A stretch of 64,000 bases of DNA, taken from assembly GCF_003854935.1 (NCBI RefSeq), contig NZ_CP033971.1, forward strand, positions 1 through 64,000. The letters run 5' to 3'. Below, in pieces: positions 445 through 49,630 of this stretch. Source of the DNA: Cupriavidus pauculus. GTDB taxonomy: Bacteria; Pseudomonadota; Gammaproteobacteria; Burkholderiales; Burkholderiaceae. The notes beneath the pieces are model-generated. The model made no database searches. It was not told where the DNA came from and saw only the letters and a program-made list of their open reading frames with translations. Position 1 is the first letter of the stretch, and each line of letters begins with the position of its first letter. Both the position numbers and the translations under genes were made by a program.

Positions 445-463
445 GCGTCCTAGACGCATCGAT
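445..463 (+). promoter_or_regulatory. Conserved leader motif, copy a
   Basis: GCGTC (445-449), loop CTA, GACGC (453-457), then ATCGAT. This matches nine other plus-strand copies except for the final base (T for C). It lies about 230 bases before the start chosen for the membrane protein gene at 690, in a region with no other gene, so it is probably part of that gene's 5' leader. Confidence 0.6.
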
Positions 464-551
464 ATCGCGGTGGCTACACAGCCTCCACGTTGCGCGGTAG
501 ATTCCGCGCCGCGTACCGCCCATTCCCCCTGATTTTCTGCCGAGCTACCTA

Positions 552-586
552 GCGCCTTTAAGACATGTCATGCATGTCTTAAGCGC
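552..586 (+). promoter_or_regulatory. Inverted repeat upstream of the 690 gene
   Basis: TTAAGACATG (558-567) and CATGTCTTAA (573-582) form a perfect 10-base inverted repeat around a 5-base spacer. GCGC on each side extends it past a 2-base bulge. It could be an operator or an RNA hairpin. There is no T-run, so it is unlikely to be a terminator. Confidence 0.5.
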
Positions 587-689
587 GTTGTGGTGCGTGC
601 GCGCGTCTCTGGATTCCTTGCTCGTCCGAGCATCGAAAAATCGCCTGGCATCCGCCAGGAAATCCCTGCAACGTTTCTCGAGAGAAACC

Positions 690-998
690 ATGGAATCCTT
701 TGCCAACAACCTCATCAAACGCCCGCTCAAGCTTCTCGCATGGTCCCTGGCCCTGTTCGCAGCTTCGCAGTCGTTCATCGTTGCGATGTTTGTGTCCGCT
801 GTCGTCTTCTTCTACCTGAAAGAGAAGGCTGTCCAGTGGAGCAAGGTCGTACCGGCAGCGCCGAAAGTGGCGACGCCGGAGAAGCCGGTCGACAATCGCG
901 AGTCGACCGCTGATACCGCGCAACCCCCCGTGAAGCAGTACGAACGCTCGGCTGTGGTTACGCCCATCCGTCGCACCGGAACGCACGATCGTTCCTAA
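690..998 (+). CDS. Small membrane protein with Pro-rich tail, unknown function
   Basis: 102 residues. After a short basic start there is a hydrophobic stretch of about 25 residues (roughly 15-40), then a polar Pro/Ala/Thr-rich tail, so it is probably a single- or double-pass inner-membrane protein. I chose ATG 690, preceded by GAGAGAAACC, over the in-frame ATG at 570, which sits inside the inverted repeat at 552-586 and lacks a ribosome site. No family recognised. Confidence 0.5.
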   Translation: MESFANNLIKRPLKLLAWSLALFAASQSFIVAMFVSAVVFFYLKEKAVQWSKVVPAAPKVATPEKPVDNRESTADTAQPPVKQYERSAVVTPIRRTGTHDRS

Positions 999-1031
999 TC
1001 GCTGGCCGCCCGCAGTGTGGGGCGGCCTCAT

Positions 1032-1069
1032 CCACCTGTCTCGGGTATCCGTTACCCGCCGACAGGTGG
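1032..1069 (+). promoter_or_regulatory. Leader hairpin before the 1098 gene
   Basis: CCACCTGTC (1032-1040) pairs with GACAGGTGG (1061-1069). Inside it GGGTA (1043-1047) pairs with TACCC (1053-1057). It ends 28 bases before the GTG start and resembles the gene-proximal hairpins of many other genes in this element. Confidence 0.55.
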
Positions 1070-1097
1070 GTCTTCGGACGCCCGTCCGGAGACCATT

Positions 1098-3063: not shown

Positions 3064-3102
3064 GCCTGTCTCAGGCATCGACCAACCCACTCCATTTGGA
3101 GT
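3064..3102 (+). promoter_or_regulatory. Leader motif copy b (altered stem) plus Shine-Dalgarno hairpin of the primase gene
   Basis: GCCTG (3064-3068), loop TCT, CAGGC (3072-3076), then ATCGAC. The stem sequence differs from the usual GCGTC/GACGC but still pairs. Next, ACTCC (3089-3093) pairs with GGAGT (3098-3102), which contains the ribosome site 8 bases before ATG 3110. Confidence 0.65.
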
Positions 3103-3109: not shown

Positions 3110-4186
3110 ATGAAACTGAAAGATCTGAGCGTGATTGTTGCGAGTTGGGAATCCCGTCAGTGGGATGCCTTCATCGCGGAGTATCTGGCTGCTGGCGTGC
3201 TGACCGATGCATTCTGGAGCGGCCGTCCTTGTCCCTGCCCCATATGCGGAGGCAAGGATCGGTTTACCTATACCCGTAACCGTCACCGCGGCGATTGGGT
3301 GTGTCGCAAATGCAATAACGGTAGCCCTGCAGGTGGCGACGGCCTGGAACTGGTCCGCCGCTATACCAACATGTCCTACTCTGAGCTGAAGCGTCGGCTC
3401 AACGGCGCCGGATCTCCGGAGCCGCTGCCTTTGGACGTTCGACCTGCGCCGACGCGAAAGCCACTGGACTCGGTGGCCAAGCTGCGACGCATCGAGAAGC
3501 AGTGGGCCAAGGCGGCGACCCTGTCACCGGGTGATCACGCGATGCGATATCTGGCCGCCCGCGTCCCGGGGCTGCGCGCTCCGAGGCCACAGTCGTTGCG
3601 GCTTGCCGTGCAGGAGTACTGGCACGACAAGCAATTGATCGGACGGTATCCAACGATCGTCGCGCAGTTCACGCTGCCGGACGGTCGGATGGCCACCTTG
3701 CATCGGACATCTTTGGATCCCGAGCGGCCAGAGAAAGCGACTGTGATCAGCCAAGACGGCGAAATTCTGCCTTCGAAGCGCAACGACGTTTCGGCGCGAC
3801 CGCCAGCCGGCGGCGCAGTGCGCTTGATGGCACCGCGCAATGGCGAGCTGGGCATAGCCGAAGGGCTGGAAACGGCCTATGCGGCCTACATGCAGTTTGG
3901 CGTGCCGACCTGGTACTGCTTGAACCGGGTGTTGTTGAGCCAGTTCGTTGTTCCGGCCGGCCTTGGCATCGAGACGGTCCACATCTTCGCGGACTTCGAT
4001 GCCGTCGACGTCAAGACGGGGAAGTCTCCCGGAGTGGCTGACGCGCTGATGCTCCAGAAGCGCCTGCGTCAGGCTGGCTACAAGGTGGTGCTGCATCGGC
4101 CCAAGGTCCGTGGCACCGACTTTTGCGATGAGTGGCGCACGACGTATCAGTTGCGCCAGTTGTATGCCCAGGCGATCCCCGCCTGA
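3110..4186 (+). CDS. Plasmid/phage-type DNA primase, CHC2 zinc finger plus Toprim
   Basis: 358 residues. Residues about 40-75 form a zinc finger (CPCPICGGKDRF ... WVCRKC) as in phage Gp4-type and integrated-element primases. A linker of about 150 residues follows. A Toprim-like domain covers about 240-340: GIAEGLETA supplies the acidic residue and FADFDAVD the DxD-like metal site. It would make RNA primers on the element's single-stranded DNA, in line with the adjacent ssb. Start chosen by the GGAG at 3098-3101. Confidence 0.88.
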   Translation: MKLKDLSVIVASWESRQWDAFIAEYLAAGVLTDAFWSGRPCPCPICGGKDRFTYTRNRHRGDWVCRKCNNGSPAGGDGLELVRRYTNMSYSELKRRLNGAGSPEPLPLDVRPAPTRKPLDSVAKLRRIEKQWAKAATLSPGDHAMRYLAARVPGLRAPRPQSLRLAVQEYWHDKQLIGRYPTIVAQFTLPDGRMATLHRTSLDPERPEKATVISQDGEILPSKRNDVSARPPAGGAVRLMAPRNGELGIAEGLETAYAAYMQFGVPTWYCLNRVLLSQFVVPAGLGIETVHIFADFDAVDVKTGKSPGVADALMLQKRLRQAGYKVVLHRPKVRGTDFCDEWRTTYQLRQLYAQAIPA

Positions 4187-4282: not shown

Positions 4283-4283
4283 A

Positions 4284-6359: not shown

Positions 6360-6511
6360 GGGACATGCTCTGGCGTGGACCGACTTCGTGGCACATCGCT
6401 CTCAGCCACTCTACCGTCGGAAAAACGAAGTCAAGCGCCGAAAGCTGTGGGATTTCGCGTGCGAAACGTTGCCGGTGATTCGTATCCTGGTTTATCCTTT
6501 GCACACCTACC

Positions 6512-6548
6512 GCGTCCCCGACGCATCGACTCCGCCGCCATTGGGCGG
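6512..6548 (+). promoter_or_regulatory. Leader motif copy c, with no coding gene after it
   Basis: GCGTC (6512-6516), loop CCC, GACGC (6520-6524), ATCGAC, then a GC-rich hairpin ending GGGCGGC. A terminator follows at 6606-6631 and I see no convincing gene between, so this leader appears orphaned or makes a short RNA. Confidence 0.6.
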
Positions 6549-6605
6549 CACAAAACGGCCTTCGATCCTTCCTCACCGAGGGGTGCTGCAGGGCTCACTG
6601 TTCAT

Positions 6606-6631
6606 GCCGGAAATTGCACCGGCTTTTTTTT
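6606..6631 (+). terminator. Intrinsic terminator downstream of the orphan leader
   Basis: GCCGG (6606-6610) pairs with CCGGC (6619-6623), followed by eight Ts. It would end any transcript starting at the leader at about 120 bases. Confidence 0.7.
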
Positions 6632-6662
6632 CAATCAAATCAAGTGGACCGTGTCGGATAGT

Positions 6663-6832
6663 GAGGACACCGGACACCGCGATACCAAGCCGATTGGCGG
6701 TCTGTTTGTGAAAATAGACCGTAGTGCGGACAATTCCGAAGCCGGACACCGGACAGGTGCTCTGTGGAAATTCCGCGTATGCCCGACACCCTTACAGCCG
6801 CGTGGCTGGGTGCGGATCACGAAGCCCGACAC
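6663..6832. repeat. Direct repeats of a CC(G/C)GACAC core next to the recombinase gene
   Basis: ACACCGGACACC occurs near 6668, GCCGGACACCGGACA at 6741-6755, and GCCCGACAC at 6781-6789 and 6824-6832. Spacings between the last three are about 40 and 43 bases. They could be recombinase arm sites or replication iterons. No gene is clear in the surrounding 6632-6790. Confidence 0.4.
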
Positions 6833-7142
6833 ACTGCGGCGGGGATGATCTGACTTTGGGGTGGGGAGCTGCTTTGCGTGCCGGGAAACGGTGAACGCAG
6901 GCTTCTGAGCAGATATCGATCCGGGGGGCGCCACCGGTACCAGAACGGCGCAACAGGTAATCACCCATCACGGCATAGGCGGCAGGCGTGTGGACGCAAT
7001 CCACGCGGGGCAGGCCGGCATCCAGAGATGCACCGGATAGGGTGGCCGCGCAAGCGGCGCGTGAGGCGAGAGCCTTGCGTGTTCGCGTAAGCGGACGGTC
7101 ACGACGCATTGCTTCCATGCTCAGGGCCGATCGGTTTGGCAT
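6792..7142 (-). CDS. Possible hypothetical protein (116 aa) downstream of a small lipoprotein gene
   Basis: An ATG lies two bases after the stop codon of the lipoprotein gene, which would allow coupled translation. The frame is Arg/Ala/Pro-rich with a Cys pair (IDICSEACVHRF) and no recognised domain. It covers the repeats at 6663-6832 in part. With high GC, long open frames occur by chance, so this is weakly supported. Confidence 0.25.
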   Translation of the reverse strand: MPNRSALSMEAMRRDRPLTRTRKALASRAACAATLSGASLDAGLPRVDCVHTPAAYAVMGDYLLRRSGTGGAPRIDICSEACVHRFPARKAAPHPKVRSSPPQCVGLRDPHPATRL

Positions 7143-7144
7143 CG

Positions 7145-7336
7145 CTAAAGGACCGGGAGAGTGGTGGTAGGACCGGCTGGGTGGGCCGGAGAGCTGGGGG
7201 TGGTACCCCGGCGCACCGAATGGGACGGATCCGAATCGGGGTCGGTGCTGTCCTGACGTGGGTAGTGCGAGCGGGCACAGCCCTGCAGCGATACTGCGAG
7301 AGCAAGCATGAGCAAGACGATCAACCTCCGCCCCAT
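7145..7336 (-). CDS. Possible small lipoprotein (63 aa)
   Basis: On the minus strand an ATG gives a basic start, a hydrophobic stretch (LIVLLMLALAVS) and a lipobox LQGC, then a short Pro/Ser/Thr-rich tail: the layout of a small outer-membrane lipoprotein such as those found beside conjugation genes. It overlaps the first 29 bases of the recombinase gene on the opposite strand, which lowers confidence. Only the signal is supportable. Confidence 0.4.
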   Translation of the reverse strand: MGRRLIVLLMLALAVSLQGCARSHYPRQDSTDPDSDPSHSVRRGTTPSSPAHPAGPTTTLPVL

Positions 7337-18429: not shown

Positions 18430-19050
18430 TCAAGGCTGCCAGTGATCGGGAAGGCCATCGATAGCCTTACCGATGAACTCGTGCAAATCCAGGAGCGGCC
18501 AGTCCTTGTCGGCGAGGGATTCTTCGGCAATCTCAGCGCTGAGCGCCGGCACATGGTCGAAGCGGATCATGGGCGCGCCATCGATGTAGATGATCTTCGC
18601 GCGCTTCAACAGTTTTTGGTATCTCGCCGCCTGAGAGACTACGGTCTCTGGCGGATCCACGTGCTTGAACTCGTATCCGGGCTGGGCGAGCGCCGCGGCC
18701 ATGGCGGCGAACTTCGGACCGGCTGTCTCCCAGTCGGAGGTCGTTGCCGCCAGCAAGTTCAGGAAGTAGGGGATGTCCGAGGCGGTGAGCGCGCGCCGCG
18801 CCATCATTGAGACGGCGTCCTGGTCCGCCGGTCGGTGCTCGACGCGACTATTCCAGATGGCGCTCAGGGTCGAGAACGCCGTGTCCTTGTTCGCGGCGTC
18901 CATGCGCACAGGCGGCGTGGAAATGCCGCATTCTTCACAAACGATAACTGCCTGGAGGCGGCCAGAGATGTAGGTCGGGGCGCCGTCGCAGTGGGCGCAT
19001 TGGAGGAGGCCGCTGGGCATGGGGAAATCAGGATCGGGAAATGCCGGCAT
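18430..19050 (-). CDS. Lar-like zinc-ribbon protein (restriction alleviation type)
   Basis: 206 residues. The N-terminal 60 residues have the Lar pattern: CAHCDGAP, then CEECGISTPP, then an AIWNSR box. In Lar proteins this ribbon helps relieve host type I restriction. The following 145 residues are not part of classical Lar and have no recognised domain. ATG 19050 has a GGAAGG ribosome site. It is the last gene of the minus-strand operon that starts at 24194. Confidence 0.6.
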   Translation of the reverse strand: MPAFPDPDFPMPSGLLQCAHCDGAPTYISGRLQAVIVCEECGISTPPVRMDAANKDTAFSTLSAIWNSRVEHRPADQDAVSMMARRALTASDIPYFLNLLAATTSDWETAGPKFAAMAAALAQPGYEFKHVDPPETVVSQAARYQKLLKRAKIIYIDGAPMIRFDHVPALSAEIAEESLADKDWPLLDLHEFIGKAIDGLPDHWQP

Positions 19051-24933: not shown

Positions 24934-25033
24934 GCGCTACGCGCATCGACACCGCCGTTACCGGCCATCTATTTTTCTTCCACCCATTGGGGCTATGTCC
25001 CCAAGGGTCATGGCTCCATTTCCTTGGAGCCAT
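24934..25033 (+). promoter_or_regulatory. Leader motif copy d (altered stem) and ribosome-site hairpins of the 25035 gene
   Basis: GCGC, loop TAC, GCGC, then ATCGAC (24934-24950): the stem differs from the usual sequence but pairs. Then a TTGGGG/CCCCAA hairpin, then ATGGCTCC (25010-25017) with GGAGCCAT (25026-25033), which buries the ribosome site 5 bases before ATG 25035. Confidence 0.65.
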
Positions 25034-25903: not shown

Positions 25904-26695
25904 ATGTACAACCAAATCATCGAGAAATTCATCGCCGCCCAACAAGCAGCACGTCAGGCCTATCAGGATGCCGCAAACTTCGAGCGCGACATGCTCGCCG
26001 GCACCGGCACCGAAGAACCATTCTTCGCCGTTGGCGTCCGGTCGGCGTACCGGCAAGAGGACGAACTGAAGAAGTTCTGCCAATCTTTGGCCGGTAACGT
26101 CGTCAGTCGGGCTCGCAAGGAGTTTGCGCCCCCGGGCGCGCGGCTCGACATCGACAATAGCGCCGAGTACGAGCGTGCGGGCCTGGAGATCCACGAAGCG
26201 CTGAGGAAGGGAGAAATCCCCGATCTGGACAGGCTTTGGGCCTCGCTGACCGCCTGTTACAAGGGCGATGGCGGGGCGGCGACGGCTTACCGTCAGGCCG
26301 CGGCGCGGATCGTGCGCAACTTTGGCCTGCATCGCAATGCCGAGGTAAAGCGTACGGCGGCCGGTGTGGTGCTGAAGAAGCCGGTCTATACCGAGACGTC
26401 CTACAGGTCCAGCCGGCGCAGGGTGGGGTATCACAGCACCCAGCCGACGGCAGACTGTCTGATGGGTCTCGCCACTTTCGCGGGCAAAGCTGGCAATGCA
26501 CTGCTGGCAAAGCAGCTTGGGGGCATCAACCTTCACGAGCTGGAGTACGTCTCGCGCGAAAAGATCGCGATGCCGGGACTGGACATCACCTTGTTCAACG
26601 ACAAGTGGGAGTTCAAGTTTTGCAACGAACTGGCAGAGGCGCTGATGCTCTTCATTGGCGAGTACGGCCAGGAAGCCATGCAGGAGCGGCACTGA
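25904..26695 (+). CDS. Hypothetical protein, first of a tandem paralogue pair (263 aa)
   Basis: Starts MYNQIIEKFIAAQQA and ends with a PGLDITLFNDKWEFKF block. The next gene has the same start (MYNALVEAFRAAQEA), a matching GEIPDLDRLW / GETPDLDRYW block and PGLDVVQFNEYWELRF near its end. So the two arose by duplication. No known domain. The stop overlaps the next ATG (TGATG), so they are translated together. Confidence 0.65.
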   Translation: MYNQIIEKFIAAQQAARQAYQDAANFERDMLAGTGTEEPFFAVGVRSAYRQEDELKKFCQSLAGNVVSRARKEFAPPGARLDIDNSAEYERAGLEIHEALRKGEIPDLDRLWASLTACYKGDGGAATAYRQAAARIVRNFGLHRNAEVKRTAAGVVLKKPVYTETSYRSSRRRVGYHSTQPTADCLMGLATFAGKAGNALLAKQLGGINLHELEYVSREKIAMPGLDITLFNDKWEFKFCNELAEALMLFIGEYGQEAMQERH

Positions 26696-31416: not shown

Positions 31417-31477
31417 GCTGGTTCTTCGTCGGTATTGCAGGGGAGGACAGTTATGCGCTATCCTCGCCGCACCTACC

Positions 31478-31623
31478 GCGTCCCAGACGCATCGACTCCG
31501 CGCCTCCGGGTGCCAGCTTCTGCAGTACGGTGGCCGCCAGCACAGCCTGGTAGTCCATCCTTCCATCCCACCGGGAACCACGTTCCCGGTGCGGCAACGG
31601 GTTCCCGATTTCCGCGAGAACCC
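31478..31623 (+). promoter_or_regulatory. Leader motif copy e and hairpins of the parB gene
   Basis: GCGTC (31478-31482), loop CCA, GACGC (31486-31490), ATCGAC. Then CACCGGGAAC (31569-31578) with GTTCCCGGTG (31582-31591). Then GGGTTC (31599-31604) with GAACCC (31618-31623), which encloses the ribosome region just before ATG 31627. Confidence 0.7.
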
Positions 31624-31626: not shown

Positions 31627-33300
31627 ATGCAAAACCCCACTGTCGTTATTGGCAAGATCCGTCCTGGCTGCAACCCGCGCAAGTACTTCGACCCTGCGGA
31701 GATGGCTGAACTGACCGAATCCATTCGCGTGGACGGTGTCATCCAGCCAATCCTCATCCGCCCCATCGAGGACGGAGAGCATGGCCACGAGTACGAGGTG
31801 GTAGCCGGCGAACGCCGCTACCGCGCCGCGCTTGCCGCCCACGGCGACGGGTACGAAATGCCCGTCAACATCAAGGTCCTGACGGACGCCGAAGCTCGCC
31901 GCTACGCGCTCATCGAGAACGTGCAGCGCGCCGACATGGCGCCGTCGGAGGAGGCTGCGTCCGCCGCTGAAATCGTCGGCCAGCTCAAAGGCGACCGTGA
32001 TGAAGCGGCCCGCCAGCTTGGCTGGTCGCGCTCGACGCTCGACAAGCGCCTGGCACTGATGAACTGCAGCGCGTCCGTTCTGGAGGCGCTCAACACCCGT
32101 ATCATCCAGCTCGGCCACGCCGAACTGCTGGCCACGCTCGCCAAGGACAAGCAGGACAAGCTCCTGCCGGTCATCGTGAGCGAGAAGAAGCCCGTCGCCG
32201 AGTTGAGGAAGACGATCGAGGCCGCTGCGTGCAGCCTCGAAGCCGCGATCTTCGACAAGACCGAATGCGCGGCCTGTCCGCACAATTCGTCGTTGCAGAC
32301 GGAGATGTTCGGCGAAGCGATCGCCACCGGTAACTGTACCAACCGCGCGTGTTATGACGGCAAGCTCACCAGCAAGCTCGAAGGCATTGCCTATGGGCTC
32401 AAGGACGAGTATCCGATCGTGCGCATTATCCGCTCGGGTGACAACCACACGCGGATCCAGCTGAAGGTCGAAGGCCCCACGGGCGTCGGCGAAGAACAGG
32501 CGAAGGCCTGCCACGCCTGCCAGAACTTCGGTGCTGCCGTGAGCGGCCTCCCTGATTCCATGGGGAAGGTCTACGGCGGCCAGTGTTTCGATACGGTGTG
32601 CAACCAGCAGAAGGTCGCGGCTCGCATCAAGGCCGAGAAGGAAGCGGCCAAGCCCACCACAGCCAAGCCGGCTGCGGGCGGCAAGGCGGCTCCGGCCAAG
32701 AAGGGCGACTCGTCGGCGTCGGCCGCCGAGAAGCCGGTGACGTCGATCAGCGAGTCCGACAAGGTGAAAACCTACCGAACTGCGCTGTGGCGCAAGGCGC
32801 TGCGCAAGGAAGTCGTGCAGAACCCTGACCAGGCGAACGCCTACCTGCTGGCAGTTGCCCTGAACGGGCTGGCACGCAACATCGCCGGCGACGTGATGGG
32901 CAAGGTCTTCGAGAAGCTCACCGAGCAGAAGTCGTCGTCGACGCTGCCGGGCTGCCTCACGGCCATCCAGGCGCTGGATGACCAGAAGCGACAGCAGCTG
33001 ACAATCGGCATGACCATCGCGGCAATCGAGGGCGTGGACGTCAGCAATCTCCGCGAACTCTGCCGGCATCACAAGCTCGACCTGCGGCCGCACTGGAATC
33101 TCCAGAACGCGCAGGATTTTCTGGAAATGCTCACCAAGTCGGAGATGAAGGTTCTCGCTGACGAAATGGGCATCCGCAAGGCCCTGGGCGACCAGTTCGC
33201 CAAGCTCTTCAACAAGCCCAAGCCGGAAGTCGTTGCCGGCCTGTTGGCGGTGAAGGACTTCGACTACACCGGCAAGGTGCCGAAGGTCCTGCACTACTAG
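31627..33300 (+). CDS. PRTRC system ParB-family protein
   Basis: 557 residues. An N-terminal ParB/sulfiredoxin-type nuclease-like domain (IGKIRPGCNPRKYFDPAEMAEL, VVAGERRYRAAL) is followed by the helix-turn-helix (DEAARQLGWSRSTLDKRLALM). The long C-terminal half is specific to the PRTRC type, with CAACPHN and CHACQNFG Cys pairs that may bind metal and an Ala/Lys-rich linker near 345-375. Would bind a centromere-like site or act as a nuclease. First gene of the PRTRC cassette. Confidence 0.92.
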   Translation: MQNPTVVIGKIRPGCNPRKYFDPAEMAELTESIRVDGVIQPILIRPIEDGEHGHEYEVVAGERRYRAALAAHGDGYEMPVNIKVLTDAEARRYALIENVQRADMAPSEEAASAAEIVGQLKGDRDEAARQLGWSRSTLDKRLALMNCSASVLEALNTRIIQLGHAELLATLAKDKQDKLLPVIVSEKKPVAELRKTIEAAACSLEAAIFDKTECAACPHNSSLQTEMFGEAIATGNCTNRACYDGKLTSKLEGIAYGLKDEYPIVRIIRSGDNHTRIQLKVEGPTGVGEEQAKACHACQNFGAAVSGLPDSMGKVYGGQCFDTVCNQQKVAARIKAEKEAAKPTTAKPAAGGKAAPAKKGDSSASAAEKPVTSISESDKVKTYRTALWRKALRKEVVQNPDQANAYLLAVALNGLARNIAGDVMGKVFEKLTEQKSSSTLPGCLTAIQALDDQKRQQLTIGMTIAAIEGVDVSNLRELCRHHKLDLRPHWNLQNAQDFLEMLTKSEMKVLADEMGIRKALGDQFAKLFNKPKPEVVAGLLAVKDFDYTGKVPKVLHY

Positions 33301-37488: not shown

Positions 37489-37564
37489 CTTTGGAGCGTT
37501 CGTTGCGGGATGCCGCTGACGGTTGCTGCCGGGCAAAGTCGCTGTTAATATTTCCGCACCTACC

Positions 37565-37676
37565 GCGTCTCAGACGCATCGACACTTCCGGTTGTATAGC
37601 CGGACAGCTTTTTTTCTCCCACCTACGGGCCTTCCTGCCCGTAGGCATGTTGGCCCGTTTTTTCCATTCGAGGCCA
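37565..37676 (+). promoter_or_regulatory. Leader motif copy f and hairpins of the 37679 gene
   Basis: GCGTC (37565-37569), loop TCA, GACGC (37573-37577), ATCGAC, then a TCCGG/CCGGA hairpin. CCTACGGGC (37622-37630) pairs with GCCCGTAGG (37637-37645). TGGCC (37651-37655) pairs with GGCCA (37672-37676), covering the GAGG ribosome site before ATG 37679. Confidence 0.7.
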
Positions 37677-37678: not shown

Positions 37679-38152
37679 ATGTTCAAGCGTTTTGTCGCAC
37701 TTTTCCTTTGCTCCGCCATGTTCACCGGCTGCGCTGTCCAGCAGACGTCGCCGAACTCGTATCGCAGTTCGGAAGCGTTGCGTACGGGCACTGTGGAAGT
37801 CGTTACCGTCGTCCGTGTCCGCCAGGTCACGATCGTCGACAGCGATGGCTACACGTCGGCCAATAGCGGCGTCCCCGGTATCGTTGGGGCGGTCGTGGGC
37901 GGTCTGCTCGGCGCCCGGGTCATCGGCGGAGGCAATGGTCGTTACGTTGCCGGTGCGCTGTCCGGCACGGTGTCGTCCGTGGCGGCACAGGCGGTTGCAA
38001 GTCGTATGAACCGGCGCAACGGTGTGGAGGTCATCGTCCGCAAGGAAGACGGCCGCCAGATCGTAGTGACCCAGGACGCTGACCAGCAGTTCACCACGGG
38101 TGAGCAGCTGTACCTGGTCGCCGCAGCGGGCAACTATCGTCTCTCGCGCTAA
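37679..38152 (+). CDS. Outer-membrane lipoprotein, glycine-zipper (17 kDa antigen/SlyB-like)
   Basis: 157 residues. A lipobox signal (FVALFLCSAMFTGC) places the mature Cys at 18. A glycine-zipper hairpin (GIVGAVVGGLLGARVIGGGNGRYVAGALSG) follows near 65-95, then a C-terminal beta-type domain. Proteins of this class stabilise the outer membrane. A chromosomal-type gene on the element with its own conserved leader. Confidence 0.82.
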   Translation: MFKRFVALFLCSAMFTGCAVQQTSPNSYRSSEALRTGTVEVVTVVRVRQVTIVDSDGYTSANSGVPGIVGAVVGGLLGARVIGGGNGRYVAGALSGTVSSVAAQAVASRMNRRNGVEVIVRKEDGRQIVVTQDADQQFTTGEQLYLVAAAGNYRLSR

Positions 38153-38265: not shown

Positions 38266-38368
38266 GCGTCATCGACGCATCGACCCCGTCCGGCATCGCC
38301 GGACCACCAACCCAGCTGGGACAACCGTCCCGTTGGGGAAGGATGTCCCGTCCTTATCGAGGATATCC
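38266..38368 (+). promoter_or_regulatory. Leader motif copy g and hairpins of the 38369 gene
   Basis: GCGTC (38266-38270), loop ATC, GACGC (38274-38278), ATCGAC; then GTCCGGC (38288-38294) with GCCGGAC (38298-38304), perfect. Near the start TCCT (38351-38354) pairs with AGGA (38360-38363) inside a GGAT/ATCC stem; AGGA is the ribosome site. Confidence 0.7.
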
Positions 38369-38752
38369 ATGAAAATCCCCAAATCCTTTACCCGTCGACA
38401 TCCGTCGACCAACACCGCGGCATGCCAGGCGATCCGTCGTGATGCTTGCCGCGTTCTGCGCCGCGTCGCCGGAGACATGGCGTTGCGCCCGCGTGATTTC
38501 ACGATCCGGGAGCATCGTCAGCGTCGCCGCGAGGTAGACGTGTTCGCGCTGCATACCGATTCGTTGCTCGTCGAGATCAAGCATCCCGCCGGCGCCGAAG
38601 GCGGTGTGCTCATGTCCTACCGGACTTGCCGGAGCCGTGACGATCTGACCGGTGGCCGCGAAAACGCAGTCACCGTCGAGTCGTTGGGCAGCGATCAGGG
38701 CTACGCAAACCTCGTCGCCACGCTTCGCGTGGTGGCGGGCCGACGCAGTTGA
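38369..38752 (+). CDS. Hypothetical basic protein (127 aa)
   Basis: Arg-rich N-terminal 60 residues, then a small globular end with LLVEIKHPAGAEGGVLMSYR. Could bind nucleic acid on charge alone. No domain recognised. Start fixed by AGGA and the leader. Confidence 0.55.
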   Translation: MKIPKSFTRRHPSTNTAACQAIRRDACRVLRRVAGDMALRPRDFTIREHRQRRREVDVFALHTDSLLVEIKHPAGAEGGVLMSYRTCRSRDDLTGGRENAVTVESLGSDQGYANLVATLRVVAGRRS

Positions 38753-40352: not shown

Positions 40353-41903
40353 ATGTACGTGATTCATATCGGCCAACGCGCCGAGCATCGCACCACGCTC
40401 GCCGGCGTGCTGCAGTACCTGAACGACGATCGCGACGGCAAGGCGGCGCCGCGCGTCGAAGATATCGCAGTGCGCCACGTCGAACGCGGTGCAATTCCTG
40501 TGGTTCGACTGACCGGCGGAAAGTTTGCCGTGCGACCCGTTGGCACCCGACGAGCCATCCTTTCGATGATCCTCGACGAGGTGGATCGCTTCATCGTTCG
40601 TGTCGGCGGCAAGATATTGCGGCCGCATGAAATGAGCCGCGCCGCGTGGGGCGCCGTGGTGGCCGCTGGCCGTCTGGCGTACTTTCCGGAAGAAGCCATC
40701 GACATGTCCCAGGACGTGGCAGGTCCGCTGTTCCACACGGTAGATCTGTTTGAGGATCAGGGACCGCTCGATATCACCGGCTTCGTTTGCGGTGAATTCG
40801 TCCGCCGGTTCGGCTACGGCACGAACGGACCACTGTACCACCCGGCCTCGAGCCCCAACTGCCGGCACGAGGTACATGTCGGCTACGCGCTGATGCGCGG
40901 GGAGAAGGTGCGGGATTGCATCATCAACACCTATCGCGAGAATCCCCACTACACGCGTTCCGAGCCCTGGATGCGATCGCTGATCGAGGTGCCCGCCCTG
41001 CGAGGAGCCCTGTCGCCGAGCGTACTGCAAGCGGTCTGCCAAATTATGCGCGGGGAGAAGATGGAGATCACGCCCCTCAACGCTCCCAGGCTGCTCGCTG
41101 CAGTGCGTAGTGTGCCGAGTGACGGTGGCTACGTGGAGGTCGATGACGCCCTTTTCGCGGCGGGAATTGTTCCTCCGCGGACGATGCCCACACCCAAGCC
41201 CCTCGAAGGTGAGAATGCACGGCCCGCCACCAAACTGGCGGCGCGAATCCACGGTCTGATCAGCGAGCGGCAGTACCAGGAAGCCTTGAGAAAGGCGACC
41301 GAGGAACGCGAAGCGCAGAAGATCAGCCAGCGCGAGTTTGATCGCCAGACCAAAGCGGCAGCAGTTTACCGGGCCGGTTATGGATACGATTGGGCCAACC
41401 GGGTGGCGCTCGCGGTCATGGAGCGTAATGTTGCGGCAGTACTCCACATCTTCGACGGCCCCAAGGACTGGAATACCGACTCCAAACGCGCGCTGCGTGA
41501 CGAACTCGGTGTCGATGTCTTGCAATGCAGCGCGGCAGAGCGCCGGCGTCGGCTTTTCGAGCTGTGTGGGTTCTCAGAACCCGAACAGGCGCAATGGGAA
41601 GCGCAGGAAGCCATCGAGAAGGCGCGCAAGCGTGCTGAACGCTCGATGGCCGATGCAATATCGCTGGCCGAAGGCACGACCTACAGGCTCGAGACCGGTC
41701 AGCGAATGAACGGACGCGAGTACGTAGACTTTTGCATCGAGGCCGGCTTTACCCAGCTCGTCGACGAGCGTCGGGGCAACGTCACGCGCTACCGTATCTA
41801 TGATCCGGTGAAGCGCATGTCGCGGCCATTGCGTGCAAAGGACGGCACGCTCGACTATGCGCGGGCCCGCCTTGCACAAATCGTCCCCGAGGTGACTGCT
41901 TGA
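40353..41903 (+). CDS. Large hypothetical protein (516 aa)
   Basis: Soluble throughout. The first 120 residues are globular; residues about 130-175 hold a GFVCGEFVRRFGYGTNGPLYHP block; 300-345 and 425-450 are charged helices. No catalytic motif or domain recognised. Typical of unexplained genes carried with PRTRC elements. Ends just before a terminator. Confidence 0.6.
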   Translation: MYVIHIGQRAEHRTTLAGVLQYLNDDRDGKAAPRVEDIAVRHVERGAIPVVRLTGGKFAVRPVGTRRAILSMILDEVDRFIVRVGGKILRPHEMSRAAWGAVVAAGRLAYFPEEAIDMSQDVAGPLFHTVDLFEDQGPLDITGFVCGEFVRRFGYGTNGPLYHPASSPNCRHEVHVGYALMRGEKVRDCIINTYRENPHYTRSEPWMRSLIEVPALRGALSPSVLQAVCQIMRGEKMEITPLNAPRLLAAVRSVPSDGGYVEVDDALFAAGIVPPRTMPTPKPLEGENARPATKLAARIHGLISERQYQEALRKATEEREAQKISQREFDRQTKAAAVYRAGYGYDWANRVALAVMERNVAAVLHIFDGPKDWNTDSKRALRDELGVDVLQCSAAERRRRLFELCGFSEPEQAQWEAQEAIEKARKRAERSMADAISLAEGTTYRLETGQRMNGREYVDFCIEAGFTQLVDERRGNVTRYRIYDPVKRMSRPLRAKDGTLDYARARLAQIVPEVTA

Positions 41904-42063: not shown

Positions 42064-42340
42064 GCGTCTCCGACGCATCGACCCTATGCCGGCAACGCCG
42101 GCCATCTCTTGAAACCGCCCACAGGAAGCATTCCCTGTCGGGACGGCTCCGTGGGCTTCTTTCCGATCCCCATGCAATCCACCTTGCTGTAGCCACACGG
42201 CGCGTTGTCATTTGTCGCCGTAGGCGGTTCATGGCGAGCGTCGCCTCCCCGACCGCGCACAAGCACGGTCTCCATTCCTTTCTCCCTTCGTTTCCACCTT
42301 CGAGCGTCAGCACAGCCTGTCGCTCGCATTCCCATTTTTA
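42064..42340 (+). promoter_or_regulatory. Leader motif copy h and long 5' leader of the DUF932 gene
   Basis: GCGTC (42064-42068), loop TCC, GACGC (42072-42076), ATCGAC, then GCCGGC (42088-42093) with GCCGGC (42097-42102). GCCCAC (42117-42122) pairs with GTGGGC (42151-42156). A 6-codon frame starts at ATG 42171 and ends before a further 160 bases of leader without a gene. Confidence 0.65.
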
Positions 42341-42351
42341 GGAGCAATCTC

Positions 42352-43323
42352 ATGTCCCATCTGGTTCAAACCATGGCGTACGCCGGCGCAACCCCTTGGC
42401 ACGGTCTAGGCAACCGCCTGGCCGAGCATCAGCCCCTTGAAGTCTGGGCCGAAGCCGCCGGCATGAACTGGCGCATCGAGGAGACCAACGTCATGTACCG
42501 CGTTGGCTCCCATGACCTGGATCCCATTAAGTCGTTTCCCGAGCAGAAGGTGCTGTACCGCTCGGACAACGGCAAGCCGCTGTCGACGGTATCTCAGCGG
42601 TACCAGGTTGTTCAGCCTGCAGAGATCCTGGAGTTTTATCGCGACCTCGTGCAGGTGGGCGGCTACCAGCTCGAGACCGCAGGTGTGCTGAAAGAGGGTC
42701 GCAAGCTCTGGGCGCTCGCCCGTACCGGTCAGTCGGCGCTGCTCAAGGGTGGTGACGAGGTCCGTGGTTACCTGCTGCTGGCCACGGCCTGCGATGGCAC
42801 GCTGGCGACCACGGCGCAGTTCACCTCGGTTCGCGTGGTCTGCAACAACACCCTGCAGATCGCCCTGGGTCGTAATCGCGGTGCGGTGAAGGTTCCGCAT
42901 CGCAGCCAGTTCGATCCGCGCGCGGTCAAGGAAGAGCTCGGCATTGCGATCTCCTCGTGGGATGGCTTCATGGCCAATATGCACGGTCTGGCGGATCGCA
43001 AAGTCAGCCAGGCCGAGTCCGAGCGGTTCTTCCAGCGCCTCTTTGCCTACTCCTGGGCGGAGGATGCTGAAACGCCTGTGAGGATGAACGAGCGTGGGTT
43101 GAAGTCGGTACTCAATCTCTTCGATGGGGCTGGCCGCGGCGCCGGGCTGGAGTCGGCATCCGGCACCGCCTGGGGGCTGGTCAACAGCGTGACCGAGTAC
43201 GTAGACCATCAGCAGCGTGCACGCTCTCCGGGCAACAGGCTCGATTCCGCATGGTTCGGCGCCGGCGCGATTCTCAAGCAGCGTGCGTGGGACGCGGCCC
43301 TCGAACTAGCGGGGTTTGCATAA
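42352..43323 (+). CDS. DUF932 phage/plasmid-like protein
   Basis: 323 residues matching the phage/plasmid-like family: ATPWHGLGNRL, YRSDNGKPLSTVSQRYQVVQPAEILEF, a TSVRVVCNNTLQIAL core and C-terminal NSVTEYVDHQQRAR. Common on plasmids and phages; function not settled, possibly DNA metabolism or protection. Ribosome site AGGAGCAAT. Confidence 0.9.
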   Translation: MSHLVQTMAYAGATPWHGLGNRLAEHQPLEVWAEAAGMNWRIEETNVMYRVGSHDLDPIKSFPEQKVLYRSDNGKPLSTVSQRYQVVQPAEILEFYRDLVQVGGYQLETAGVLKEGRKLWALARTGQSALLKGGDEVRGYLLLATACDGTLATTAQFTSVRVVCNNTLQIALGRNRGAVKVPHRSQFDPRAVKEELGIAISSWDGFMANMHGLADRKVSQAESERFFQRLFAYSWAEDAETPVRMNERGLKSVLNLFDGAGRGAGLESASGTAWGLVNSVTEYVDHQQRARSPGNRLDSAWFGAGAILKQRAWDAALELAGFA

Positions 43324-45755: not shown

Positions 45756-46148
45756 CTACGCGAAATAGCAGAGCATTCGCCTGTTTTGAAAGAAAGTCCT
45801 GTGCCACAATGCTTTCACACCTAGCGTCATCGACGCATCGACTCTGACTCCTGGCGAGTCCATCTCTTTGTTCAAGTCGTGCATTTGCGCACGCGCCGAC
45901 TGGTTGGCTACCAGTGTGGATATCTCTTGTGCTAAGTGTTTTCGCCGAACACTTCCCCTCATCAGCTCGTAATACGCGTTCCAAAGCTGTGCCTCGACAT
46001 GAGCGCACGCGGGACACCGTTCGAGCCTGGGACCATGTGGAGCTCTCTCAAGGCCCCTCCTAGGCAGAACGGCAGACGTCGAGCCGATCCGTGAACCTGC
46101 GGCCGAACCTGTGGGTTCGCGAAAAGGGTTGTTGTGCAGCGTGACCAT
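45756..46148 (-). CDS. Possible hypothetical protein (130 aa) running into a leader motif
   Basis: On the minus strand a frame opens after a GAGGAC/GTCCTC hairpin and has natural composition for 90 residues: LERCPACAHVEAQLWNAYYELMRG, with a CxxC and a helical coiled-coil stretch. The last 30 residues are the antisense of leader motif copy i (45824-45860), so its native C-terminus was probably replaced. No domain recognised. Confidence 0.4.
   Translation of the reverse strand: MVTLHNNPFREPTGSAAGSRIGSTSAVLPRRGLERAPHGPRLERCPACAHVEAQLWNAYYELMRGSVRRKHLAQEISTLVANQSARAQMHDLNKEMDSPGVRVDASMTLGVKALWHRTFFQNRRMLCYFA
45824..45860 (+). promoter_or_regulatory. Leader motif copy i
   Basis: GCGTC (45824-45828), loop ATC, GACGC (45832-45836), ATCGAC, then GACTC (45846-45850) with GAGTC (45856-45860). 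The nearest plus-strand gene starts only at 46335, with a minus-strand frame in between. Confidence 0.65.
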
Positions 46149-46214
46149 GCTGCACGAGGACGACTTTACGTCCTCAACATAGAGCCGCGCGCATGAGTGC
46201 GCCGCTCCCTGAGT

Positions 46215-46297
46215 GCCACGCCCCCGGAAGGGGCGTGGCAGTTCGGGTTCCTGACATCCAAGCTCGCTGCCGGCGCAAACCGGGGCGAGCTTTTTTT
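46215..46297 (+). terminator. Hairpin and terminator in the leader of the 46335 gene
   Basis: GCCACGCCCC (46215-46224) pairs with GGGGCGTGGC (46230-46239). Then GCTCGC (46262-46267) pairs with GCGAGC (46285-46290), followed by seven Ts. As it lies 40 bases before the start it could act as an attenuator. Confidence 0.65.
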
Positions 46298-46334: not shown

Positions 46335-46643
46335 ATGCACCAGGACACCGAGATTTCCGCCGCGATCGCGGCAACGCTGAACCTGCGCCGTCCCGAGTAC
46401 AAGGACATGCCGCAGGCCTGGCGGTCCCTTTGTGAGGCGGCATACGTCGCCAGTCTTCCGGAAGTCGCCCGAAACGACTTCCTCAATCGCGTAACGACCC
46501 AGCGCGGGGCCGACACAGCCCTGCGCCTTCGGGAGCATGCTGCGTCCCTCCGGGCACGAGTCGTTCTTTTCCTGGAACGGAGGAACTACCCATGCATGCA
46601 CCCATCACCTACAGCGAGCCCGGCGGACGCCGAAGCCTGCTAG
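46335..46643 (+). CDS. Hypothetical protein (102 aa)
   Basis: ATG follows CAGGAGACGCTC. Helical, soluble (ISAAIAATLNLRRPEYKDMPQAW). No domain recognised. Its 3' end overlaps the next gene by 52 bases in another frame, so the two are likely co-transcribed. Confidence 0.55.
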   Translation: MHQDTEISAAIAATLNLRRPEYKDMPQAWRSLCEAAYVASLPEVARNDFLNRVTTQRGADTALRLREHAASLRARVVLFLERRNYPCMHPSPTASPADAEAC

Positions 46644-47908
46644 AAGAGCGGCCCATGCGGCCGCCCATCATTGGCAAGATCCGACCCGGCATCAAGGTCC
46701 TCACCAAGGCTGCGCGCGACAAGCCCGAGGCCGTGAAGATCCACGATGCTGGCCTCGCGCGGGGCGATAGCTTCGAGCGCATCGAAGGCGATATTGCGCG
46801 GGCGACAGGCATCAAGACGCCGCTCGTGCCGAAAAACGTCCCCTGGTTCACCTGCCGTGCTTCTGACTTCGCCAATCCTGCGTTGGCCGAAGACATCGTC
46901 CAACGCTACGGCGAAGATCGCAACGACGGCAACGGGCTTCGTCTCTGGCGGTTTCCCGTGGTCTTCGCTTTCGACGACTGGCTGAGCAACATGCCCAACC
47001 AGCTTGTCGCATGGACGAAGAGCGGCCGGCAGTACTTCTCGGAGTATGGCTCCGACGGCCGGCGCTACTGCAAGATGTACGCACCTGCGGTGCGCGACGA
47101 GCGCGCCAATCGTGCCAAGCGCAACTGGGGCGGTCGCACCGTCATCCTGAGGCAGGACAACGATATGCGGGACGGATTGTGCGATCCGCAGGAATGCCCG
47201 CAGTACCAAGGCGGCCATTGCAACCTGTCAGCGAGCTTCTTCTTCGCGATTCCGCATGTCTCCGGACTCGGGCTTATTGAAATGCCCACCACCTCGATCT
47301 ACGTCCTGCAAAAAGCCCACGCGGCCATGCAGACCGTGGCGATGGCGCGAGGGCGGCTCGTTGGGGTCAAGTTCTGGATGTCGAAGCAAGAGCTGGAGAT
47401 CAGCCGCATCGATGACACCGGCAAGCCTGTGCGCCAGATGCAGTGGCTGATTACGCTGGACGCAGAAATCGATATCGCAGCATTGCTTGATGGCTCGGAC
47501 CGGCGCCCGCCGGCATTGGAAATGGCAGAACAGACCGTTTCCATGCTGGAAGGGGGCAGGGAGGTCCCACTCGAGCACCGCTCGGCAGATGAAGGCATCA
47601 TCGAGGCGCCGCAGACCGGTACGTCGGAAAGCGGCGTAGTTCAGTCCGCGAGTTCGATACCTCCGTCCGACACGGCGGGTACTGAGGACCTGGAGAGCGA
47701 GTATCTCGATCTCGTGAAGCGCCTTGGGCTCAATAGCGAGGACGGCGCCCGCCAGTTGAGAGCCTATGCAGCGGCGACCTTCGGGCGCGGCTGGTCCAAG
47801 CGGGAACAGGATGTGCGTGGGTTCTTGGCTCAACTTCGCACGGCGCTGACCAATCCAGCTGCCTTCCGTGAACAGGTGGCGGGTATCGCCGCTGACGTCG
47901 CTACATAA
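46592..47908 (+). CDS. Gp3-like protein (recombination directionality factor family / 'hydrolase or metal-binding')
   Basis: 438 residues. IIGKIRPGIKVLTKAARDK start, a metal-type Cys cluster (LCDPQECPQYQGGHCNLSASFFFAIP) near 193-220 and a YVLQKAHAAMQTV block, matching a plasmid family I remember annotated as hydrolase/metal-binding and related to Gp3-like directionality factors. In phages such proteins steer integrase direction. ATG 46592 has GGAGGA 8 bases upstream; a later in-frame ATG at 46655 is possible. Confidence 0.65.
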   Translation: MHAPITYSEPGGRRSLLEERPMRPPIIGKIRPGIKVLTKAARDKPEAVKIHDAGLARGDSFERIEGDIARATGIKTPLVPKNVPWFTCRASDFANPALAEDIVQRYGEDRNDGNGLRLWRFPVVFAFDDWLSNMPNQLVAWTKSGRQYFSEYGSDGRRYCKMYAPAVRDERANRAKRNWGGRTVILRQDNDMRDGLCDPQECPQYQGGHCNLSASFFFAIPHVSGLGLIEMPTTSIYVLQKAHAAMQTVAMARGRLVGVKFWMSKQELEISRIDDTGKPVRQMQWLITLDAEIDIAALLDGSDRRPPALEMAEQTVSMLEGGREVPLEHRSADEGIIEAPQTGTSESGVVQSASSIPPSDTAGTEDLESEYLDLVKRLGLNSEDGARQLRAYAAATFGRGWSKREQDVRGFLAQLRTALTNPAAFREQVAGIAADVAT

Positions 47909-47936
47909 CTATCGCCAGCCTTGTGCCGGCAGTTGA

Positions 47937-47966
47937 GGGAAGCCCATGGGCTTCCCTTTCTTTTTC
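47937..47966 (+). terminator. Intrinsic terminator
   Basis: GGGAAGCCC (47937-47945), AT, GGGCTTCCC (47948-47956), then TTTCTTTTT. Confidence 0.85.
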
Positions 47967-48004
47967 CTTGCCGCATGCCGGCACATTTCCTTGGAGGTAT
48001 CACT

Positions 48005-49456
48005 ATGCTCAACCATGGCGAGAGCCTGTTGGCTGCGCATTTCTCTGATTTGCACTACTCCCCTGGCCATCTGGCCGAGGCGGACCGTTGCTTTGGCTTT
48101 GCGGTGGAGGACGCGATCGCAGATCGCTGCCGGGTTGCCGTGGTGTCGGGCGACTCGACCGACCACCGACTCGATGCCCACACGCCGGCGTTATCCGCGC
48201 TGGCACGGCGGATCCACCAGTTGTCGTCCCACATGCCGGTCATCATGCTGCAGGGTACGTTCAGTCACGAACCGCCCGGCACGCTGGATCTGTTCCGATT
48301 GATCGGCGCAAGCTTCCCGGTATACGTTGCAGACCGGATTCACCAGGTCGCGCTTGTTGGCGGGGCATTCATTCCGAGCGATGGCGCGATCTTCAGCCAG
48401 GCGGAAATGGACGAGCTGCTCACCCGGCAAGGGCTGCCAGACGTCGTCTTCACCTGCGTGCCCACGGTCAACAAGGCGGTGCTGGCGGCCGCGGCCGGCG
48501 TGGCCAACGCCGCGACGGCGGTTGGCGACCACCTGGCTGACTATCTGGCGGCCGCTGGCGCTGTGAATCGTCAATGGCGCTCACAGGGCGTCCGTACCAT
48601 CGGCATTTCCCACGGCACCGTCAACGGTTGCCAGACGGAGCACGGCGTGCCGATGGCCGGACTCGACCACGAGTTCACCATCGGGGCACTGTTTGATGCC
48701 CACTGCGACGCGTTCATGCTTGGCCACATACACCGGGCCCAGCAGTGGGAACGTGAGGGCAGGGTGGTGGCCTATCCGGGCTCAATCGGACGGTTCCATT
48801 ACGGCGAAATCGGCGCGAAAGGCTATCTTCAGTGGCAGGTATCTCCGGGGGAGGCAGTAGCTACCCAGGTGAAGACACCCGCGAGCGAGACCGTCTGCAT
48901 CGACTTCGACGGGCCGCCGGACATGGCAAAGCTTGCCGAGATGGCTGCCGATGCTGCACACAAGTTCGTGCGTGTCCGCTGGACGGTCAACGAGGAGCAT
49001 CGTCAACTCGTGGACCGGGAGGCCATTCAGGCCCTCTTTGGTGCCAGTGCGGACGTGAAGCTCGAAGCCCGAGTTCTACCGGCTGTTCGCAGCCGCGCTG
49101 AAGGCATCAGCCGAGCCGCCACCTTGTCCGCGAAGCTGGGACGTTGGTGCGAACTGACCGGCGTCGACGCGAATCCGTTACTGGACAGTCTGTCGATGCT
49201 CCAGAACCTCGATGCCCAGGCGATTGCCGAGCAGGTGCTGGCTGACCTTGATGAAATGTCCGTGCCTGTCACGGAGAATGTCGGCGCCGTAGAAGCTGTT
49301 GCACCACCGTTCATTGCGAAGCTGATGGACATGGAGCTCGAGGATCCGACTGCCGCGCCTGGGTCATTCCCGGTCGTGGCGGTAACGGAGCCCGTAGCGC
49401 CCATTGCCACGGCGTCAGCGCCGATGAACTGGCTGACCGACGATCTTTTTGCGTAG
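48005..49456 (+). CDS. SbcD-like calcineurin-type phosphoesterase
   Basis: 483 residues. Metallophosphoesterase motifs: HFSDLHY (DxH) near 13, VVSGDSTDH (GDxxxH-like), then LQGTFSHE where SbcD/Mre11 usually has GNHD, ISHG near 200 and MLGHIHRA. The C-terminal 150 residues are helical. With the SbcC-like ATPase 700 bases downstream it would form a nuclease complex acting on DNA ends or hairpins. Ribosome site GGAGGT. Not translationally coupled to SbcC as usual; a small gene intervenes. Confidence 0.8.
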   Translation: MLNHGESLLAAHFSDLHYSPGHLAEADRCFGFAVEDAIADRCRVAVVSGDSTDHRLDAHTPALSALARRIHQLSSHMPVIMLQGTFSHEPPGTLDLFRLIGASFPVYVADRIHQVALVGGAFIPSDGAIFSQAEMDELLTRQGLPDVVFTCVPTVNKAVLAAAAGVANAATAVGDHLADYLAAAGAVNRQWRSQGVRTIGISHGTVNGCQTEHGVPMAGLDHEFTIGALFDAHCDAFMLGHIHRAQQWEREGRVVAYPGSIGRFHYGEIGAKGYLQWQVSPGEAVATQVKTPASETVCIDFDGPPDMAKLAEMAADAAHKFVRVRWTVNEEHRQLVDREAIQALFGASADVKLEARVLPAVRSRAEGISRAATLSAKLGRWCELTGVDANPLLDSLSMLQNLDAQAIAEQVLADLDEMSVPVTENVGAVEAVAPPFIAKLMDMELEDPTAAPGSFPVVAVTEPVAPIATASAPMNWLTDDLFA

Positions 49457-49531
49457 CACTACGCCAATCCCTAGAACATGCGAAAGCCATGTTCCGACAG
49501 CCCGCGAGGCTGTCGAAATCTGGTTTCACCC

Positions 49532-49630
49532 GCGTCCCTGACGCATCGACCCAGCAGTATCCATTTCCTTTCTATCTACCCCGACGGGTGCTTCCCGTCC
49601 GGGGCGCACTCCGTCATATTTCTGGAGTGC
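49532..49630 (+). promoter_or_regulatory. Leader motif copy j and hairpins of the 49634 gene
   Basis: GCGTC (49532-49536), loop CCT, GACGC (49540-49544), ATCGAC. Then CCCCGACGGG with CCCGTCCGGGG (49579-49604, one bulge). Then GCACTCC (49606-49612) with GGAGTGC (49624-49630), hiding the ribosome site up to the base before ATG. Confidence 0.7.

Follow-up and report, generated by a model that had tools for sequence, protein, structure and literature searches.

The first 64,000 nucleotides (nt) of contig NZ_CP033971.1 of Cupriavidus pauculus (the window, meaning this whole stretch) carry ten plus-strand copies of a short sequence tag, a small hairpin (H1) followed by AUCGA. These copies may be the 5' ends of a family of messenger RNA (mRNA) leaders that would place about ten operons of a conjugative plasmid in one post-transcriptional regulon with a two-state switch, a reading from sequence for which the chances appear evenly balanced. 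The tag family, its promoter geometry, the hairpins that follow it and a leader-specific, mutually exclusive complementarity between two of these hairpins, H3 and H4, are established computationally. The window is part of a 334-kb contig (C4) bearing plasmid replication and conjugation genes, and the contig is taken to be a conjugative plasmid because these include a Rep3 initiator, TraG/TraD, TraI_2, TrbI and a pilus ATPase.

A preliminary description of this DNA had listed the ten plus-strand copies, and each was found at its given coordinate. The stem is GCGTC/GACGC in eight of the ten, GCCTG/CAGGC at 3064 and a 4-bp GCGC/GCGC at 24934; the loop is 3 nt in all ten; nine tails read ATCGAC, the one at 445 ATCGAT. 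The family consensus is a stem, usually GCGTC/GACGC, a loop, usually of 3 nt, and AUCGA followed by C, U or A. The minus strand of the window holds no perfect copy, and an order-3 Markov model gives a chance level of 0.1 perfect 5-3-5 hairpins with ATCGAC per strand per 64 kb. The exact pattern GCGTCNNNGACGCATCGAC has seven matches in the 6.18-Mb genome, every one inside the window; with up to two mismatches it has 22 across the whole genome (eight in the window and 14 scattered on contigs C2 and C3), and the reversed control pattern has 10 at the same tolerance. Judged by eye, the 334-kb contig beyond 1-50 kb shows no more copies with a pyrimidine run and a GC-start stem. The accepted tags of the block from 445 to 49550 share one orientation despite several minus-strand operons inside the block. 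The interpretation in the preliminary description is partly supported. Constant box, free loops and compensating changes uphold a shared 5' leader family on unrelated operons of one mobile element; the statement that all copies face genes of unrelated families holds for the operons so marked, except that a terminator-like hairpin comes next after the 6512 copy and an sbcD RNA after the 45824 copy.

Related loci were sampled by a PRTRC ParB search in which the tag was not used, yielding 45 loci, mainly of Cupriavidus, Paraburkholderia and Caballeronia. Perfect stems of 4-7 bp with a loop of 3-5 nt and ATCGAC numbered 152 on the plus strand versus 16 on the minus strand of these loci, chance matches included, and a tag lay near parB in 45 of the 49 loci examined. 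The pattern GCGN5-12CGCATCGAY was run on 54 sequences (the window, 44 of the 45 ParB loci, the Armatimonadetes locus being omitted, and nine loci recruited by the pattern itself) and gave 164 distinct plus-strand versus seven minus-strand matches; removal of the 10 plus-strand matches with a G in the three bases ahead of the stem left a set of 154 copies. Alignment on the stem brings out T and A at -19 and -18, T at -14 and A at -7. A TANNNT box begins between -21 and -18 in 110 of the 154 copies (shuffles: mean 7.4, maximum 13), and from its position a transcription start point is predicted about 7 nt ahead of H1.

The second hairpin (H2) reported earlier behind the tag is present: the 30 nt behind the tail fold at -9.2 kcal/mol versus -4.9 for shuffled sequence, with a mean z of -2.07 over the 154 distinct copies. 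The following stretch, 30-90 nt behind the tail, reaches a mean z of -2.56, compared with -0.38 for the upstream control. When 19 parB leaders were aligned, their four helices held 27 cells changed on both sides versus 10.5 in shuffles (0/500), with three such pairs each in H2 and H3 and none in H1 and H4. Perfect helices of 6 bp or more whose end lies within 8 nt of the start codon were found in 12 of 20 leader genes versus 8 of 198 others; all these genes come from the same five plasmid stretches, and orthologues among them are not independent. Start regions of leader genes are also more tightly folded (-28.4 vs -22.0 kcal/mol), and H4 pairs the Shine-Dalgarno strand close to the AUG.

The complementarity between H3 and H4, which is new relative to the preliminary description, was measured on 100 of 183 sites that could be parsed into both hairpins, H3-H4 cross-pairing not being used as a parsing criterion. 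Each leader was divided into the H3 5' arm and loop (a), the H3 3' arm (b), the H4 5' arm (c) and the Shine-Dalgarno arm (d), and c was exchanged for the c of a leader outside the own gene group (11 groups, assembled manually). The a:c energy averaged -9.47 kcal/mol for a leader's own segments versus -6.06 (sd 0.71) when mispaired, and none of 5000 draws reached the own value. For the H3 loop alone with c, 34/5000 mispaired draws were as good; the controls with c were null (H3 3' arm, 3644/5000; basal half of the H3 5' arm, 1581/5000). Own pairing beat foreign pairing in 18 of 20 protein families. When 28 segment pairs were compared, three of which consisted of very short segments and gave unusable mean energies, 0/1500 mispaired draws were as good for a:b and c:d, which had been chosen to pair, and for a:c, which had not, and for these alone; the runner-up was the H3 3' arm with the Shine-Dalgarno arm (92/1500). 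Pairing of the tag with downstream parts was rejected by the same comparison: neither H1 nor the stretch from the tag to H3 has leader-specific complementarity to the rest of the leader, which is consistent with a separate recognition module. Segment c is needed both for a:c pairing and for pairing with the Shine-Dalgarno strand in H4, which makes the two mutually exclusive. The elements placed in the window are as follows.

445-463, plus strand: tag (H1 hairpin and ATCGAT), by sequence pattern
620-637, plus strand: second tag-like element, GCTCG..CGAGC with ATCGAA, in the 445 leader, by sequence pattern
3064-3082, plus strand: tag with stem GCCTG/CAGGC, by sequence pattern
6512-6530, plus strand: tag, with -10-like TATCCT at 6493-6498
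6606-6631, plus strand: terminator-like hairpin GCCGG/CCGGC then T8, downstream of the 6512 tag (one such hairpin in the stretch vs 1.0 expected in shuffles)
24934-24950, plus strand: tag with 4-bp stem, by sequence pattern
24984-25007, plus strand: H3 of the 24934 leader (5' arm and loop 24984-24998, 3' arm 24999-25007)
25010-25033, plus strand: H4 of the 24934 leader (anti-Shine-Dalgarno arm 25010-25018, ATGGCTCCA; Shine-Dalgarno arm 25025-25033), ATG at 25035
31478-31496, plus strand: tag of the parB leader, with -10-like TATCCT at 31459-31464
31567-31594, plus strand: H3 of the parB leader, GGGAACC lying across 5' arm and loop
31599-31623, plus strand: H4 of the parB leader (GGGTTCCC at 31599-31606 with GAACCC at 31618-31623), ATG at 31627
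37565-37583, plus strand: tag of the lipoprotein leader, with -10-like TAATAT at 37546-37551
37622-37676, plus strand: H3 (37622-37645) and H4 (37651-37676) of the lipoprotein leader, ATG at 37679
38266-38284, plus strand: tag of the intercistronic class, TTTCACCC ahead of the stem, without a canonical -10
38311-38368, plus strand: H3 (38311-38337) and H4 (38341-38368) of the 38266 leader, ATG at 38369
42064-42082, plus strand: tag of the DUF932 leader, ATG at 42352
45824-45842, plus strand: tag ahead of the sbcD RNA and a recombination-directionality-factor-like gene at 46592
46096-46250, plus strand: sbcD RNA (RF01757), separate from the tag, 155.4 bits
49532-49550, plus strand: tag ahead of the 49631 gene and an SbcC-like ATPase, by sequence pattern
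49579-49630, plus strand: H3 (49579-49603) and H4 (GCACTCCG at 49606-49613 with TGGAGTGC at 49623-49630) of the 49532 leader, ATG at 49631

The exclusive pairing can be followed in individual leaders. In the 24934 leader, 25010-25018 is also able to pair with TGGGGCTAT at 24988-24996 (nine pairs, two of them G-U). Complementary a:c segments are GGGAACC/GGUUCCC in the parB leader, GGGACC/GGUCCC in Robbsia parB, UGGGGCUAU/AUGGCUCCA in the 24934 leader and GGGGCAC/GUGCUCC in the pMOL28 leader at 26030; the lipoprotein leader has the alternative pairing CGGGCC/GGCCCG, followed by T6. Within the 24934 group, the H4 arm GGCCCC of pHG1 and locus L059 fully matches H3 GGGGC yet puts a C.A mismatch in H4, and locus L022 has GGAGC with GGCTCC. 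In genome G918, H3 and H4 could be placed in two of four leaders, one of them the 49532 orthologue, and with hand-picked arms both fit a:c (-12.5 and -9.5).

These observations can be combined into a possible mechanism, in which RNA would be the acting molecule. Each leader would start about 7 nt ahead of the fixed tag (H1 and AUCGA), behind which would come H2, a pyrimidine-rich stretch and then, in many leaders, H3 and H4 beside the AUG. In the default state H3 and H4 would both be formed, the Shine-Dalgarno strand being held in H4, and translation would be low; the other state would arise when the anti-Shine-Dalgarno arm is taken up by the loop side of H3, in a pseudoknot or an anti-sequestor, leaving the ribosome-binding site free. 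Both states are predicted to exist in the cell, each gene having its own custom complementary hairpin pair beneath the common 5' tag. A plasmid-encoded factor recognising that tag might then flip the switches of all leaders together, for example on entry into a new host. The full proposal, in which a single plasmid factor would recognise H1-AUCGA on many messages and throw a pseudoknot switch specific to each gene, freeing the ribosome-binding sites and turning on replication, partition and DNA-processing genes in concert after transfer with no transcriptional regulator involved, is put forward tentatively, the balance being tilted against it.

Several results weigh against the switch as described. 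A -10 box is absent in 44 of the 154 copies, and within the window no TANNNT lies at -21 to -18 for the tags at 3064, 38266, 42064, 45824 and 49532. The accessible part of PMC7563307 reports a TAnAAT motif as not found for pMOL28, which, as far as that part goes, is no support for the promoter reading as a whole. As many as 83 of the 183 sites are not parsable into H3 and H4, and both hairpins are placeable in only five of the ten window leaders (24934, 31478, 37565, 38266 and 49532). The gene grouping was done manually, and some of the parses seem incorrect, for example in the 42064, Cab3060 and L022 38266 rows, where arms are short. Two of the 20 families show no better own pairing, and the gain in the lipoprotein family is small (-8.2 vs -7.5). 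In the parB alignment a:c is 97.7% paired yet invariant, and there is therefore no a:c covariation within this group. The predicted openness of the Shine-Dalgarno window is alike in leader and other genes (0.448 for 25 leader genes vs 0.476 for 193 others, p 0.40), and the unpaired part of the Shine-Dalgarno arm is only 0.26-0.62 in the a:c state versus 0-0.30 in the default state (group means). In a model lacking a pseudoknot, adopting the a:c state takes 6-19 kcal/mol (group means), so that a factor, or a pseudoknot keeping the base of H3, would be needed; no tag-reading factor was found among the candidates.

Among these candidates were open reading frames (ORFs) that have relatives in each of the five tagged plasmid records but none in the stretches of six untagged PRTRC records. 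They include the integrase-like gene at 7308 and the ORFs at 18430-19050 (minus strand), 38333-38752 and 40353-41903. The structure model of P0002, a basic 127-aa protein behind the 38266 leader, has a mean predicted local distance difference test score (pLDDT) of 86.1 (fair confidence), and its comparison with solved folds gave no match (best E 0.49). P0002 is unlikely to be the tag-reading factor, having no match in G918, a single genome in which an empty result alone proves little.

The main rival to the post-transcriptional regulon is transcription attenuation with antitermination, so ranked on account of the 45 of 96 distinct parsed leaders in which T makes up at least five of the 8 nt right after the H4 5' arm. 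Here the helix between H3 and the H4 arm, together with the U-rich tract, would form an intrinsic terminator, H3 would be the antiterminator and the tag a read-through site like nut or put. The U-rich tract is found in 21 of 22 leaders of the lipoprotein group, the tag lies near the extreme 5' end, as put sites do, and a terminator-like hairpin with T8 stands between the 6512 tag and the first conserved gene, likewise in pHG1, G918 and pMOL28. On the other hand, 51 of the 96 leaders lack a U tract, including 16 of 21 in the parB group, helices are enriched directly at the AUG, and H3 should form ahead of the terminator; the attenuation model is judged unlikely. Of similarly low probability is a DNA operator, in which a plasmid repressor or activator would bind GCGTCnnnGACGC as a palindrome located near +8 of each promoter. 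Stem pairs 1-3 are fixed by the search pattern; pair 4 is TA in 102 of the 154 copies, CG in 49 and GC, TG and GT in one each, and pair 5 is a standard pair in 126 of 135. Such symmetric changes are equally expected from a DNA palindrome, and an operator also fits the -10 box standing at a constant distance in 110 of the 154 copies and the 13-nt span of H1 common to 122 of them. The remaining 32 spans, however, vary from 11 to 17 nt (the GCCTG/CAGGC stem has a 3-nt loop at 3064 and a 5-nt loop in its pMOL28 counterpart), the conserved AUCGA is one-sided, the strand bias is 164 to 7, 44 of 154 copies stand without a -10 box, and the hairpins behind the tag would go unexplained. Variable span, one-sided AUCGA and the structured stretch behind it favour RNA over a DNA palindrome, short of proof.

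Two further readings carry far less weight. Frpo single-strand promoters of leading regions have their -10 and -35 inside a hairpin of the single strand, and the tags might analogously be promoters or priming signals on the entering plasmid strand: the accepted tags share a strand and neighbour ssb, primase and parB genes, and minus-strand operons of the same blocks have none. This is very unlikely and was set aside, as there is no fold across the promoter; the region from -60 to -20 is no more folded than shuffles (z -0.38, RNA energies), and structure begins behind the predicted start point. Moreover, which side of the relaxase gene the tagged block occupies differs between Robbsia and the window contig, if the latter is circular, with the origin of transfer (oriT) unmapped. 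Least probable is a 5'-end stabiliser, with H1 shielding messages from 5'-dependent decay and H3 and H4 as ordinary leader structure: H1 does lie about 7 nt from the predicted 5' end, but a fixed AUCGA sequence would not be needed and leader-specific H3-H4 complementarity would not be expected.

The surroundings of the remaining tags vary. The 445 tag is preceded by a -10-like TAGAGT at 426-431, and the gene start behind it is probably 690, by likeness to pMOL28, with its annotated start 243 nt downstream of the tag. The element at 620-637 lies in this ssb operon leader, 175 nt behind the 445 tag, and similar ones occupy the corresponding position in pMOL28, B. vietnamiensis and Robbsia. The 3064 leader is short, with an ACTCC/GGAGT hairpin and a primase-like gene at 3110. 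Behind the 6512 tag the next conserved gene is the integrase-like gene at 7308, 796 nt away; the GCCGG/CCGGC hairpin stands about 75 nt from the tag and about 680 nt ahead of this gene, an arrangement of tag and terminator-like hairpin that recurs in pHG1, G918 and pMOL28, and 6512-6631 is possibly a short RNA of about 125 nt. The interval 6632-7307 is long, has no ORF found in more than a few relatives and contains repeated CCGGACACC-like words; lying between the terminator-like hairpin and the integrase-like gene, it is perhaps a recombination site. In the DUF932 leader (42064-42352, about 290 nt) a six-codon ORF, MQSTLL, was noted by eye, and pHG1 has MHLQFLL at the same place. The sbcD RNA starts 254 nt downstream of the 45824 tag, presumably on one transcript with it. 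Sequence resembling sbcD was seen by eye behind the tag in pMOL28 and pHG1 too, so that the sbcD RNA may belong to these plasmids.

Tags were found in related contigs of Cupriavidus, Paraburkholderia, Caballeronia, Burkholderia and Robbsia, with the tail ATCGAA in some of those on the Burkholderia and Robbsia plasmids. Plasmid pMOL28, of which about 140 of 171 kb was read, has eight in 42 kb and three in another stretch, orthologues of the 445, 3064 and 6512 tags; pHG1 has eight in 42 kb. The hosts of these two plasmids, C. metallidurans CH34 and C. necator H16 respectively, are familiar laboratory strains. In 25-42-kb stretches of other PRTRC plasmids (six records) no tag was found in Aromatoleum, Polaromonas, Pelobacter, Rhodoferax or Undibacterium and none convincing in Hydrogenophaga, and no alternative repeat of a hairpin with a 6-mer was prominent in the same stretches. 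The exact pattern occurs in 3 of 399 genomes of the order and in 46 of 250 genomes of the family, where the reversed pattern had one match. PF14456 (PRTRC-F) was found in 31 of the 250 family genomes, and by hand count at least two tag copies occur in 25 of these 31 versus 7 of the 219 others. One of those seven, G918, has four tagged leaders of a related backbone and no PF14456 match, and for this reason the tag does not appear to require the PRTRC genes, and PRTRC proteins are unlikely as a necessary factor. A phage origin of the tag was rejected: 23 viral contigs have the exact pattern, about the chance number by a rough estimate, and the contexts shown lack the pyrimidine run and -10 box. 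Three related viral contigs of 4.7-4.9 kb from one sample (L087, L088 and L099) have the exact tag pattern followed by a hairpin, likely by chance.

Membership in the radC or sbcD RNA families had been suggested in the preliminary description and found no support in Rfam model scores. The radC RNA resembles the present family in that its members are leaders in proteobacterial mobile elements. Its model (RF01754) had no match in the window at E up to 10, and its best genome score was 21.4 bits versus a cut-off of 40, with none on C4 (150 of 912 first-look candidates scored); with no score above the cut-off, membership was rejected. In PMC2864571, as far as that source was accessible, radC RNA is listed in a table row. 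The sole window match of RF01757, at 46096-46250, lies outside all ten tags, and the sbcD RNA, which has another fold and covers none of them, was likewise rejected. Rfam 15 as a whole gave two matches above gathering score in the window, neither on a tag, and seven at E up to 10 in a 921-base stretch with two tags, all under their cut-offs. A cobalamin riboswitch was noted at 61371-61527 on the minus strand (32.9 bits). A literature search, with most subscription journals outside its reach, found no description of this leader.

Other known systems share single features with these leaders. Like the tags, the lambda nut and HK022 put sites are short hairpins occurring repeatedly within one element, where they stand at the 5' ends of early transcripts; here, in contrast, no boxA was noticed and many leaders end in hairpins at the start codon. 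In the repZ leaders of IncI and IncB plasmids a hairpin loop pairs with the arm hiding the ribosome-binding site and frees the site via a pseudoknot, under the control of a leader peptide and antisense RNA. A loop complementary to the strand hiding the ribosome-binding site is found here as well (arm and loop, 0/5000; loop alone, 34/5000), although repZ is a single replication gene and here many genes would stand under a common 5' tag. In the phage Mu Com/mom system, as described in the accessible part of PMC6483171, the folded translation start region of a mobile-element message is opened by a small element-encoded protein. A folded translation start on a mobile-element message would be common to both, whereas Com/mom has one target, no shared tag and another sequence, and no Com-like factor was found here. 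On the feature of this type, a ribosome-binding site in a hairpin, the observations here point both ways: a terminal helix is present in 12/20 leader genes vs 8/198 others, but the openness of the Shine-Dalgarno window is not lower. By analogy, the proposed mode would be most like repZ pseudoknot control and, to the extent that PMC6483171 was accessible, phage Mu Com/mom, extended to a set of operons under one tag.

In mobile elements, RNA switches that act on the ribosome-binding site have precedents in single genes. Plasmids pMOL28, with 11 tags in the part read, and pHG1 also bear the tag system. If the present reading is true, a set of such switches under one 5' tag, with its own hairpin pair for each gene, would constitute an RNA regulon of a conjugative plasmid.

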